From: an uncultured Ruminococcus sp.
Lineage (GTDB): Bacteria; Bacillota; Clostridia; Oscillospirales; Ruminococcaceae
Length of the DNA: 32,375 bases
Direction of reading: 5' to 3'
Assembly: GCA_947177205.1 (NCBI GenBank)
Contig: CAMWTO010000009.1
Span: 1-32,375, forward strand
The notes under the pieces are model-generated. The model saw only the letters and a list, made by a program, of their open reading frames with translations, was not told the origin of the DNA and ran no database searches. A program made the position numbers and the translations under genes. Positions 9,993 through 19,246 of this stretch are shown here, piece after piece. How positions within the stretch are numbered: the first letter of the stretch is position 1; every line of letters starts with the position of its first letter.

Positions 9993-10778
9993 TCAAATCT
10001 GATACTCAATCATTCTGATATCTCCGCCGAGATTCAGAATATCAAGAATTTTAGAACGATATACCTGAAATGTGTCCTGTGCTCTGGCACGGGGTCTTGG
10101 TAGTTCAATATCAATGACAGCTTCAACTTTCGACGGTCTTGCTGACATGACAACGACCTTATCTGACATATATATTGCTTCGTCCACATCATGTGTAACC
10201 ATAATCATAGTCATGTTGTGTTTTTGCCATATTTTCAGAATTTCATCCTGTAAATTCATTCTTGTAAATGCGTCTAATGCACCCAGAGGTTCATCAAGCA
10301 GTAATACTTTCGGATGCCCTACCAATGCCCTTGCCAATGACGCACGTTGATTCATACCGCCCGAAAGCTGATGCGGATAAGATTTTTCAAATCCCTTTAA
10401 GCCTATCAAATTAATAAAATCCTGAACATCTTTCTTATTGTTTTGATAGATATGTCTTGCCTTTAATCCAAAAGCAATGTTCTGTTCGACAGTAAGCCAC
10501 GGAAAAAGGTTAGACCCCTGAAATGCAAATCCACGATCGCTTCCGGGCTTTGAAATTTCTTTACCGTCCAAAACGATAGAACCACTGCTTGGATGATCCA
10601 ACCCACCAATCAAACGCAGAAGCGTTGACTTTCCACAACCAGATGGTCCTATCAGACTCACAAATGTTCCAGGCTGAATATCCAGAGTGAAGTCATTCAA
10701 GGCAATAATATTCTCTTGTGAAGAATCCTGATTTACAAATTCTTTTCTGACATTCTGAATTGCAATATTTCCTACCAT
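9993..10778 (-). CDS. ABC transporter ATP-binding protein, NitT/TauT family
   Basis: A 261-residue ATPase of the nitrate/sulfonate/taurine importer family (SsuB/TauB/NrtD-like). Walker A is GPSGCGKS (44-51), the Q-loop is in AFQGSNLFPW, the signature is LSGGM (138-142), Walker B is LLLDEP (159-164), and a switch histidine is in MVTHDVDEA. It would power uptake through the permease encoded next to it. ATG at 10778 was chosen because AGAAAGGAG lies 7 bases upstream. The start overlaps the permease stop, so translation is coupled. An earlier in-frame start at 10850 would run far into the permease gene. It is last in the importer set; substrate is discussed under the binding protein. Confidence 0.93.
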   Translation of the reverse strand: MVGNIAIQNVRKEFVNQDSSQENIIALNDFTLDIQPGTFVSLIGPSGCGKSTLLRLIGGLDHPSSGSIVLDGKEISKPGSDRGFAFQGSNLFPWLTVEQNIAFGLKARHIYQNNKKDVQDFINLIGLKGFEKSYPHQLSGGMNQRASLARALVGHPKVLLLDEPLGALDAFTRMNLQDEILKIWQKHNMTMIMVTHDVDEAIYMSDKVVVMSARPSKVEAVIDIELPRPRARAQDTFQVYRSKILDILNLGGDIRMIEYQI

Positions 10779-11731
10779 TTGATGACTCCTTTCTGCCATA
10801 TCAGAACACGGTCTCTTACTTTGAAAAGCAATGTCAGTATCAGAGAACACAAAATTGCTATTATAATCAATCCTGCATATACGCCATCATACATCATCAT
10901 CTGTTTCTGCCAGTTGATATACCAGCCGATTCCACTTGAATTTCCATTCATTTCAACTGCCATAAGTGTTGCAAAGGATGATACTGTGCCATAGAATACA
11001 CCCAAAAATATACTTGGCATTGCGCTTGGAATCGCTACATGAATAATTTTATAAAGTGTTGATGCACCTAATGTACTAGATACTTCAAAATGAACCTGAT
11101 TTGTACTTTGTATACCGCTGCTTGTCATCAGTGTAACAGGGAACCATACCGCAAAAGCAATTAAAAATACATTTGCAGTATTCGTTGTTGGAAATACGCT
11201 CAAGGCAAGCGGAATCCATGCTGTTGTCGGAATAGGCCCTATAAATTTTGTAACCGGATTTAACCAATATCCGACCTTTTTGTTATATCCCAGTGCAAGT
11301 CCTGTCAGAAATCCAATTGACGCTCCCCAGATAAATCCTGCTATCAGAAGCTTCAACGAGCAGAATACATTTTCTAAAAGAAACAATTTTTGTTCATATA
11401 GCAAGCCGATTATTCTGTCCAGAGACGGAAAATATAAAGTCGGCAGAATGGTTGCTTTTGTGGTAACAATATTGACAAGTGCCATAAAAATAATTGTACC
11501 TGTCAACAATGGCACTTTGTGTACTATTTTTGCTCTCAGCGTTTTCAGAAATATCGCTGAAATTGCAAAAACAAGGTAAATTCCTAAAACAAGCAGCATT
11601 AAGTATACATAGTAAGGATATTCTGTTGTTTTCTGTTTTCCGCTGTCATCAAATCCATAATATGCGACAACGGAAAGAAAAACTGCAATCACTGGTAAAA
11701 CTAATTTTACTATAGTAATATATTTCTTCAT
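10772..11731 (-). CDS. ABC transporter permease, NitT/TauT family
   Basis: A 319-residue membrane protein with about seven or eight hydrophobic segments. Two or three at the N-terminus (about 1-85) precede the conserved BPD_transp_1 domain. The cytoplasmic EAA loop for contact with the ATPase is at LGASTLYKIIHVAIPSAMPS. SsuC/TauC homologues are usually about 250-270 residues, so the N-terminal membrane extension is longer than usual. ATG at 11731 is preceded by GGAGAG with 5-base spacing; an in-frame ATG at 11746 is less well placed. It lies 65 bases after the binding-protein gene and overlaps the ATPase start. Stop codon is TAG, so TAG is a normal stop in this genome. Confidence 0.9.
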   Translation of the reverse strand: MKKYITIVKLVLPVIAVFLSVVAYYGFDDSGKQKTTEYPYYVYLMLLVLGIYLVFAISAIFLKTLRAKIVHKVPLLTGTIIFMALVNIVTTKATILPTLYFPSLDRIIGLLYEQKLFLLENVFCSLKLLIAGFIWGASIGFLTGLALGYNKKVGYWLNPVTKFIGPIPTTAWIPLALSVFPTTNTANVFLIAFAVWFPVTLMTSSGIQSTNQVHFEVSSTLGASTLYKIIHVAIPSAMPSIFLGVFYGTVSSFATLMAVEMNGNSSGIGWYINWQKQMMMYDGVYAGLIIIAILCSLILTLLFKVRDRVLIWQKGVIKW

Positions 11732-11796
11732 TTTCTCTCCAATCATCGGCTTATAAAAAATCCTGATAAAATGTCAGACTTTCTCAGCCGCAGCAG

Positions 11797-18013: not shown

Positions 18014-18018
18014 GATAT

Positions 18019-18381
18019 TCAATTCCTTTCAAATAAATTTTGTATCTGCTCGAAGGAAATTACTTTTCGGATAGATTCTTCCAACATATCCGGTAACTCC
18101 ATTGGAGTGATTCCAAGCTGTTCTGCCTGTATGGATGCTTCTGTTCCGATTTTGCTGACAAGAAGATATTTGCAATCCTGAATCTTCTGCAAATTTTTTA
18201 TCAGTTGTCCGTCATCATGATTTCTATAATTGCAAACCGGCTTTACTGCACGAGTTTCAATATAGCGAAAGCTATTTCTGTTTTCCACTTCAAAAATGAA
18301 AAATTGATCTGCATGCCCGAAATGCTGATTGACAACGATTCCATCGGATGAGGCAACCGCAATTTTGTATAAATTATCCAT
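18019..18381 (-). CDS. NifX-type dinitrogenase cofactor-domain protein (copy 1)
   Basis: A 120-residue single-domain protein of the NifX/NafY/NifB C-terminal family. It opens [20 protein letters not shown], with the conserved HFG loop that precedes the cofactor pocket, and [10 protein letters not shown]. It ends with the usual helical segment. Because the adjacent NifB lacks the NifX domain found fused to it in many diazotrophs, this gene probably supplies that part in trans, binding NifB-co. Its ATG overlaps the nifB stop (ATGGATAA), so the two are coupled. The second copy at 12960 has an extra cysteine-rich insert. No obvious problem with the gene. Confidence 0.88.
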
Positions 18382-19246
18382 GAGAAAATGTTTCCTTTAC
18401 GCTTAATCTTCTCTGATAGATCTGGTCTCCGTATTCCGATTTTCCGGGAACTCCCACAGCGTCGGCACGGCAATGCTGACAATGACGAAAAACATCAATA
18501 TATTTTGAAGCTTCCGTTCTTGCCTTGTCTATCTGCAAACAGGTAGGAGCTTTTTGGTCAGCAAGTTCAAAATGTGGTATCAGCGGAATAATATTATAAA
18601 TACTTGCTCCGGCTTCACTGACTGTTTTTGCTATTTCTTCAATATGTTCTCCGTTTATCTCAGGGACAAGCACAGTATTTATTTTCACAGTAATTCCGGC
18701 AGATGACACTTTTTCAATGCCTTTCAATTGATTTTCGATAAGTATTTCAGCACCTTTAACACCGTCATAACGCTTGCCATGATAAATTATATATTTGTTG
18801 AGTTTTGCTTCAATTTCAGGGTTTACGGCATTTACTGTAACTGTCAGAGAATCTATCCCTATGTCAATCACTTCGTCCGCCTTTTCATAAAGCAGAAGAC
18901 CATTTGTACTCATGCACTTGATAATATCAGGAAATTTCTCCTTAACTTTCCTGAACGTTTCCAAAGCATACTCTGATGCAAGAGTATCTCCTGGTCCTGC
19001 AATGCCTGCTACTGTAATTTCCGGACAGATTTTCAAAGCCTTTTCAAGTATATCAATACTTTCTTCAGGAGTTATCACCTTTGAAGTTACTCCGGGACGG
19101 TCTTCAGTATCATTAATTACCCTGTCGCAGAACCGGCAGGCAATGTTACAGCCTGGACTGACCGGAAGATGAATTCTTCCCACATTATTTTTATGTCCGC
19201 CAAAGCACGGATGAGAATTCTGCAAATCCTTATATGTATTGCTCAT
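18374..19246 (-). CDS. nifB: NifB-like radical SAM cofactor-synthesis protein (no NifX domain)
   Basis: A 290-residue stand-alone radical SAM protein. The radical SAM cluster motif is C33-x3-C37-x2-C40 (SPGCNIACRFC). It has NifB hallmarks: HPCF near the start (C14, in SHPCFGGHKNNVGRIHLPVS) and the C-terminal HCQHCRADAVGVPG. The enzyme fuses two [4Fe-4S] clusters, adds carbide and a sulfide, and makes NifB-co, the precursor of nitrogenase-type cofactors. The length equals the compact archaeal/clostridial NifB core. It indicates that the D/K pairs here hold a NifB-co-type cluster rather than a plain [4Fe-4S], unlike protochlorophyllide-reductase relatives. It sits 43 bases downstream of tRNA-Cys on the same strand. 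No own promoter was seen. Confidence 0.95.
   Translation of the reverse strand: MSNTYKDLQNSHPCFGGHKNNVGRIHLPVSPGCNIACRFCDRVINDTEDRPGVTSKVITPEESIDILEKALKICPEITVAGIAGPGDTLASEYALETFRKVKEKFPDIIKCMSTNGLLLYEKADEVIDIGIDSLTVTVNAVNPEIEAKLNKYIIYHGKRYDGVKGAEILIENQLKGIEKVSSAGITVKINTVLVPEINGEHIEEIAKTVSEAGASIYNIIPLIPHFELADQKAPTCLQIDKARTEASKYIDVFRHCQHCRADAVGVPGKSEYGDQIYQRRLSVKETFSHG

Follow-up and report, generated by a model that had tools for sequence, protein, structure and literature searches.

What does a nitrogenase-like operon do when a gene for a cysteine synthase is built into it? This question is raised by the DNA of an uncultured Ruminococcus sp. (GenBank assembly GCA_947177205.1, contig CAMWTO010000009.1), of which a stretch of 32,375 nucleotides, called here the window, was analyzed. 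One operon in it encodes a NifB-type maturase, a NifX-type protein (NifX1), a NifH-type reductase, a cysteine-synthase-family enzyme (CysK2), the nitrogenase-like subunits D2 and K2 and a second NifX (NifX2), and is followed by the genes of an ATP-binding cassette (ABC) importer; a second subunit pair, D1 and K1, lies elsewhere in the window. An earlier sequence-only reading had taken the locus for a relative of the methylthio-alkane reductase (MAR) MarBHDK of Rhodospirillum rubrum that delivers sulfur to cysteine. Judged by family placement, ligand residues and gene linkage, the operon rather probably serves anaerobic sulfur scavenging through a two-component reductase of MAR type, whose C-S cleavage feeds cysteine. 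Described here are a subclade of the MAR family partnered by a cysteine synthase, D1 as a distinct branch, and a divergent leader RNA.

Placement of the D2K2 pair

Because a stop codon interrupts D2 in the source genome, its activity is to be judged from intact relatives. The intact D2 of a genome of the same genus (G014) matched MarD in the PDB at 318 bits, the best nitrogenase chain reaching 123, and for K2 the chain next after MarK was 1mio_B at 92 bits. Structure models were made of D1 (predicted local distance difference test score, pLDDT, 76.2; 17 aligned rows) and of a D2 copy from the related locus L050 (pLDDT 75.9; 18 aligned rows), and the first Foldseek match of the latter was 9fmg (template modeling scores 0.80/0.84). 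The sequence-only reading had named a phylogeny as the check on its claim of kinship to MarBHDK. In a D tree of 59 of the 157 aligned D rows, hand-picked for spread, D2 forms its own clade (14 rows, support 100/100) within a 34-row clade that holds R. rubrum MarD (100/99), apart from the Nif and Vnf proteins and not with true NifD. The K tree, of 38 rows picked in the same way, places K2 with MarK in a clade of 27 rows, with support (91/97) weaker than in the D tree.

The residues agree with this placement. Numbering follows MarD, whose reference sequence agreed with the published residues at each of the nine positions checked. C66, C91, C158, C270, W195, F199, H375, R428 and H429 are kept in all 80 D2 rows (79 named loci), and Gln74 in 79 of them. 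With C12, C36 and C95 of the window K2, which align with MarK cysteines in the same motifs and are the likely P-cluster ligands, D2K2 has the six P-cluster cysteines of MAR, three in each subunit, in addition to Cys270 and the Loop I pair Arg428-His429 in every D2 row. The description of the R. rubrum enzyme proposes the Arg428-His429 pairing as a possible hallmark of MARs, and puts C73, H194, W195 and H375 at the active site (PMC12552129). At the equivalents of NifD Gln191 and His195, D2 has Trp and Phe and D1 has Cys and Phe, and NifEN and NifV were not found in the source genome, which is 88.5% complete. N2 fixation by D2K2 was rejected on these residues, the tree and the failure to find NifEN and NifV. 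Sequence comparisons, and for D2 the fold comparison too, place D2 and K2 in the MAR branch and not among nitrogenases, as the sequence-only reading had proposed.

R. rubrum MarBHDK (PDB 9FMG, 9D9U; PMC12552129) shares with the operon a NifB-type maturase, a NifH-type reductase, the six P-cluster cysteines, the clade, and Cys270, Trp195, Phe199, His375 and Arg428-His429. The operon differs from it in that D2 forms a clade of its own, Cys73 and His194 are replaced, a CysK-family gene is part of the operon, and an ABC importer is present. Identity to MarD ranges from 32 to 36% over the 80 D2 rows, the window D2 is 25% identical to Sinorhizobium NifD, and K2 is 40% identical to MarK. MarD-like proteins 55 to 59% identical to R. 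rubrum MarD were found in the same genus or class, and one at 76% in the same order; this coexistence marks D2 as a distinct subfamily.

The cysteine synthase link

The gene order and single direction given by the sequence-only reading are borne out by coordinates and strand (Table 1). It had also described gaps of about 0 to 11 bases, which applies to the two gaps of 11; at the other four junctions between NifB and NifX2 the genes overlap, by 8, 4, 1 and 10 bases. Its terminator at position 12891 corresponds to a hairpin with a U-run, placed between NifX2 and the importer, and none of 200 shuffles was equally stable. The NifB motif is present as GCNIACRFCD, and Cys97 and Cys132 of NifH hold if translation begins at MSEIRQ. 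The absence of NifE, NifN and a homocitrate gene, also part of that reading, agrees with profile searches of the draft genome (205 contigs, 88.5% complete): they retrieved six PF00148 proteins, namely D1, K1, D2, K2 and a pair on contig C106 that falls short of both the nifE and nifN cut-offs, and for NifV nothing above the cut-off and three weak matches. The C106 pair belongs to a third nitrogenase-like set (L041:1256-6390), in which a NifH-like protein accompanies the two PF00148 proteins beside an ABC permease and an ATPase.

In G014, of the same genus, the order B-X-H-CysK-D-K-X-abcX-B-A-ThiF is kept at 55 to 97% identity, and the ThiF fusion there directly adjoins the 3' side of the main-operon importer. 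The recurrence of the arrangement in G014 and in many named loci shows that it exceeds chance. Relatives were sought in genome contigs, and neighbors were counted only in the 80 closest relatives, the best of at least 588 confirmed stretches (at least 596 matched); many of these 80 are short and ended by contig ends, and one (L071) is the same contig as that of G014. K2 follows D2 in 77 of 77 loci. Among the 75 loci with at least 1 kb upstream, 59 have a CysK-family gene within 400 bp upstream of D2, and in 3 more it stands just after K2. This upholds the sulfur-metabolism setting and the cysteine-synthase partner of the sequence-only reading. CysK2 has a cysteine synthase as its top PDB match and is 48% identical to CysK1, the canonical enzyme encoded farther upstream. 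Other neighbors among the 80 loci are CysK1 (46), the cystathionine gamma-synthase (CGS) family (34), MalY/PatB (32) and Rrf2 (20), and, more rarely, NifS (12), ThiF (10), NifU (8) and CysE (7).

The 80 best named relatives, at 71 to 100% identity, come from Ruminococcus, Lachnospiraceae, Butyrivibrio, Lacrimispora, Propionispira, Treponema and Bacteroidales. The D2 clade spans Clostridia, treponemes and Bacteroidales, and many of its records are titled as rumen or gut samples. The occurrence of D2 at 80 to 82% identity in Bacteroidales points to spread by horizontal transfer. In one Bacteroidales locus (L104), the sulfur-relay genes ThiF, DsrE2 and TusA are followed by CysK2, D2, K2 and PatB. 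Plasmid pTS2 of Treponema saccharophilum (L156) carries two DK pairs together with NifH, a NifB-like radical S-adenosylmethionine (SAM) gene, cysK, an ABC importer and a gene for an O-acetylhomoserine enzyme; with an IS30 transposase nearby, the plasmid is a possible vehicle for such transfer.

The sequence-only reading had presented such sulfur scavenging as new, which does not stand. The discussion of Dos Santos 2012 (PMC3464626) already links Cys275-bearing NifD-like genes, briefly, with O-acetylhomoserine sulfhydrylase or cysteine synthase in R. rubrum, Clostridium beijerinckii and Geobacter sp. FRC-32, probably the same broad association as that of the D2 operon. Scavenging by a nitrogenase-like system with an Ssu-type importer was printed in 2024 for IsrBHDK of Rhodobacter capsulatus, which acts on isethionate and releases sulfite (PMC11423573). 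In a termite-gut spirochete, group IV nifDK share an operon with cysteine synthase and a sulfur role was suggested, with B and H at other loci (PMC13067680). Relative to what these two accounts of a cysteine-synthase link describe, the clade, ligand-loop, leader and importer analyses are added here to the former and the residue analysis to the latter. For the operon itself, no published description was found in the open-licence literature beyond the related systems cited (PMC12552129, PMC11423573, PMC3464626, PMC13067680, PMC9147875).

In the mechanism inferred for the operon, from cluster identity and chemistry to substrate and fate of the sulfur, NifB would make an [Fe8S9C] precursor cluster, which the NifX proteins would carry to D2K2. 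There it would be held through the equivalents of Cys270 and His429, with a P-cluster between D2 and K2, and NifH would deliver electrons at the expense of ATP. D2K2 would then reductively cleave the C-S bond of an organosulfur compound, probably polar, taken up by the ABC importer. As gene order suggests, the sulfur would be handed to CysK2: set free as sulfide, it would enter cysteine directly, and set free as a thiol, it would reach cysteine by way of an S-alkyl-cysteine intermediate and the PatB lyase. The adjoining NifS, NifU and serine acetyltransferase would supply cluster sulfur and O-acetylserine. The importers among the 80 stretches are of NitT/TauT type in 13, of polar-amino-acid type in 12 (one locus has both) and MetQ/MetI in 9, with none of the three in 47; these families include organosulfur carriers, which suggests a substrate that requires import. 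If the operon does encode a C-S reductase feeding cysteine, it would give rumen and gut bacteria an anaerobic sulfur source beyond the volatile sulfides of R. rubrum MAR, and D2K2 may release small hydrocarbons. Annotation can assign members of this superfamily to nitrogen fixation, as in the description of C. indolis (Lachnospiraceae; PMC4149025), whose genes may or may not be of the D2 type.

The second pair and the competing explanations

D1 is 32% identical to MarD, 30% to D2 and 26% to NifD, and K1 is 34% identical to K2. In both the PDB and the Foldseek comparison D1 matches MarD best, and all 23 D1 rows have the three P-cluster cysteines and Cys270. The positions of Arg428 and His429 are gaps in all 23, position 195 is C in 21 and H in 2, and position 375 is T in 21 and Y in 2, so that D1K1 lacks the Loop I pair, Trp195 and His375 of MAR. 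Instead, 22 of the 23 rows have a His-x9-G[YF]xG motif within the last 110 residues, and the 23rd has it before a long tail; the motif occurs in none of the 80 D2 rows and none of 28 Mar-like rows. Sinorhizobium NifD and the NifD of genome G068 share the histidine spacing of D1, and two VnfD have one residue less. In HHalign the D1 histidine fell on NifD His442 with each of the two NifD-type profiles compared, and the MAFFT alignment puts it two columns off. The D1 histidine therefore likely matches His442, although the disagreement between the two methods leaves this short of certain. The sequence-only reading had stated that both D proteins lack a His442 equivalent. For D2 this is right as to the NifD-type motif, and it overlooks the MAR-type Arg428-His429; for D1 it is probably wrong.

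The NifD-type histidine sets D1/K1 apart as a separate, odd branch. D1 falls neither with NifD nor with VnfD, and it joins a clade of five loci (L131, L133, L134, L143 and L038) with a support of only 91/68; since long branches also meet near the Nif root, the branching order is unsure. Of 391 genomes of the class, 3 have a close D1 (at least 86% identity), each of them together with D2, and 7 have a D2 of 77% or more, 4 of these showing no D1 match above 40%. These class scans scored 4 protein or 12 RNA-model candidates per genome, and absences in them are not proof. Among the 80 named stretches, 19 have a D1. In G014 D1K1 was not found, the K2 search giving only that genome's K2 and D2. In the window D1K1 has no H or B gene of its own alongside, and for this reason it looks accessory. 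PMC12552129 asks how MAR and nitrogenase came to have the cluster-binding histidine in different loops, and the D1 branch is relevant to that question.

Several observations weigh against a C-S reductase that feeds cysteine. Identity between the window D2 and MarD is only 34%, and the MAR pocket residues Cys73 and His194 appear in none of the 80 D2 rows (position 73 being G in 52, S in 25, A in 2 and D in 1, and position 194 I in 79 and V in 1); since these positions differ from MarD, the D2 substrate may differ too. No CysK gene adjoins D2K2 in 13 of the 75 loci, the importer family varies between loci, and the window importer sits behind a strong terminator. Methanethiol, the known product that MAR forms from methylthio-alkanes together with a hydrocarbon, is no direct cysteine precursor; with cysteine synthase it would give S-methylcysteine, and direct cysteine would require sulfide. 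Finally, D2 in the source genome is not one open frame, a point absent from the sequence-only reading. A reassigned codon was rejected, because TAG also terminates the ThiF, abcB and glutamine amidotransferase genes of the window; a TAG in genome G011 sits in a K homologue, at another site. The stop, at a Gln codon, may be a sequencing error, which a draft in 205 contigs makes possible, or true decay. That D2 is a pseudogene and the whole operon a decaying relic is nevertheless highly improbable, as D2, apart from the stop, shares 92% identity with the intact protein of G014 and retains all tested ligand residues, and the other operon genes are open frames.

Other explanations concern the fate of the sulfur or the reaction itself. 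D2K2 could be of MAR type with its thiol passing to methionine as in R. rubrum, CysK2, CysE, NifS and NifU serving only to supply cysteine and sulfide for Fe-S clusters. Azotobacter nif clusters, which carry nifU, nifS and a cysE copy, are a precedent, NifS, NifU and CysE are grouped in the window, and CGS-family genes flank 34 of the 80 loci. The CysK-family gene, however, keeps company with D2 and not with NifS/NifU, and a specialized CysK2 is not needed for bulk cysteine, given that canonical CysK1 is present in 46 of the 80 stretches as well; this explanation is considered unlikely. It is quite improbable that D2K2 is an IsrBHDK-like reductase of isethionate-type sulfonates, releasing sulfite from a compound imported by an Ssu-type system. 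The NitT/TauT/SsuA-type importer, a truncated sulfite-reductase-C-like gene of the source genome (C102:162-740, 142 bits, below cut-off), which makes a sulfite product conceivable, and the reported occurrence of Isr in intestinal bacteria (PMC11423573) would suit it, but as that source describes them, IsrD has one P-cluster Cys, the other two being absent, as are Cys275 and His442, and IsrB is not NifB-like. D2 has three P-cluster cysteines and Cys270, its operon has a NifB-family gene, and a separate Isr-like D with one Cys was found in genome G407; membership of the Isr group was rejected on the single P-cluster Cys, missing Cys275 and non-NifB radical SAM protein that define it. Very improbable, too, is that D1K1 (or D2K2) is a group IV-A nitrogenase fixing N2 without NifEN, as reported for Endomicrobium proavitum; the NfaDK of that species does not need NifEN, and a complete set of ligands is predicted for it (PMC9147875; compared by published description). 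D1 does have Cys270/Cys275, all three P-cluster cysteines and a histidine at the NifD His442 spacing. Against this, neither D1 nor D2 has NifD-like Gln191 and His195, both lie outside NifD and VnfD in a tree drawn without Endomicrobium NfaD, NifV has no match above cut-off, and sulfur genes surround both pairs.

Leader RNA and neighboring genes

Ahead of nifB lie a small DUF2292 open reading frame (ORF), a terminator- or attenuator-like hairpin and a divergent tRNA-Cys-like gene, for which no published description was found in the open-licence literature. An ARAGORN scan of 60 loci found a tRNA-Cys-like gene in 25 (24 genomes besides the source genome, L071 and L027 being one), and across loci it lies 26 to 148 bp before nifB; L068:8978-9050 and L222:13836-13908 are examples of copies elsewhere. 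Since close relatives such as L050 lack the gene, it is optional. In 21 aligned copies the cloverleaf pairs are kept in 99.2% of cells, with 34 cells altered on both sides, the A26-G40 mismatch is invariant (21/21), and the anticodon is GCA in 20 (GAA in L068). Position 73 is G in 13 and A in 8, never U. The canonical tRNA-Cys of the source genome, on contig C43, has U73 and scores 64 bits. Since U73 and GCA count among the identity elements of tRNA-Cys (PMC7609411), a tRNA-like RNA without U73 would be expected to be charged poorly by cysteinyl-tRNA synthetase.

A covariance model built from the aligned copies gave 26 strong matches (86 to 102 bits, its own members included) in 98 sources, mostly D2 loci, and scored the canonical tRNA-Cys of the source genome at 47. 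In the 391 class genomes it exceeded 60 bits at three places only, in the window, G388 and G407, the next score being 58.2. The G388 copy precedes NifH of a D2 operon, and the G407 copy lies about 260 bp before metK, heading an operon with an Isr-like nitrogenase-like set. That cluster (L222) also holds a radical SAM protein, NitT/TauT-like importer genes and a nucleoside-phosphorylase-family protein, and by eye a similar ORF and hairpin stand ahead of its metK. In 29 of the 80 loci a DUF2292-like ORF lies no more than 600 bp upstream of NifB/NifH. A known riboswitch or T-box in the leader was rejected, as Rfam at gathering scores finds only the tRNA in the window; in 18 related loci its matches are tRNAs and, in L125, a single cobalamin riboswitch that lies behind NifH. 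A more elaborate picture, possible but doubtful, is that of a gut and rumen sulfur island in which an altered-pocket D2K2 would pass the sulfur of an imported organosulfur compound to its dedicated cysteine synthase, D1K1 with its histidine at the NifD position would be accessory, and the tRNA-Cys-like RNA would perhaps be a cysteine-starvation sensor or a special-purpose tRNA.

Table 1. Features of the window in the direction of transcription
Feature	Coordinates	Strand	Evidence
Cystathionine gamma-synthase/lyase family enzyme	23790..24995	-	below cut-off for listed equivalogs
PatB/MalY-type C-S lyase	22631..23809	-	TIGR04350 above cut-off
GshA-like ligase	21473-22612	-	
Class II glutamine amidotransferase	20728-21510	-	
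CysK1, canonical cysteine synthase A	19617..20558	-	TIGR01139 above cut-off
DUF2292 small ORF, 53 aa	19428..19589	-	PF10055 62.4 bits
Terminator/attenuator-like hairpin before tRNA-like gene	19369..19426	-	fold -32.7 kcal/mol for 19363-19432, without shuffle control
Divergent tRNA-Cys-like gene, 43 bp before nifB	19290..19362	-	called tRNA-Cys GCA; Rfam 51.4 bits
NifB/MarB-type radical SAM cluster maturase, 290 aa, without fused NifX domain	18374..19246	-	TIGR01290 nifB 273 bits (cut-off 343.65, not reached); CNIACRFC motif
NifX1, cluster-carrier-type protein	18019..18381	-	PF02579
NifH/MarH-type reductase	17165..18022	-	TIGR01287 nifH 465 bits (above cut-off); Cys97/Cys132
CysK2, cysteine-synthase-family pyridoxal-phosphate enzyme, slot before D2	16158..17153	-	cysKM 331.6 bits (just below cut-off 344.15)
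D2, MarD-type catalytic subunit, one in-frame TAG	14683..16146	-	residues, tree, PDB matches of intact G014 copy
In-frame TAG in D2	15544..15546	-	L050 and G014 read CAG (Gln)
K2, MarK-type catalytic subunit	13385..14683	-	9d9u_C MarK 376.5 bits; K tree
NifX2	12960..13394	-	PF02579
Terminator-like hairpin and U-run, between NifX2 and importer	12891..12944	-	fold z -5.39
abcX, NitT/TauT (SsuA/NMT1) type substrate-binding lipoprotein	11797..12870	-	TIGR01728 83.9 bits (below cut-off 163.5); PF09084 80.4 bits
abcB, ABC permease	10772..11746	-	PF00528
abcA, ABC ATPase, listed start overlaps abcB	9993..10850	-	SaoA/NtrCD/TauB-like, all below cut-off
Rrf2-family regulator (IscR/CymR-like)	9363..9800	-	profile matches
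NifS cysteine desulfurase	8158..9387	-	TIGR03402 above cut-off
NifU-type Fe-S scaffold	7717..8154	-	TIGR03419 above cut-off
Serine O-acetyltransferase (CysE/EpsC-like)	6821..7714	-	165 bits, below cysE cut-off 210.65
Quinolinate synthase NadA	5886..6800	-	above cut-off
Rhodanese-ThiF/MoeB fusion	4665..5753	-	profile matches
D1, second NifD-like subunit, likely NifD-type His, without MAR Arg-His loop	3193..4677	-	alignments, tree
K1, second NifK-like subunit	1902..3233	-	K tree

The sulfur-gene stretch upstream of the operon also contains a gene for a LysR regulator, together with those for the PatB/MalY and cystathionine-synthase-family enzymes. Amid these sulfur genes, the GshA-like ligase is paired with the class II glutamine amidotransferase, and the same pair recurs in two of the related loci (L056 and L109).

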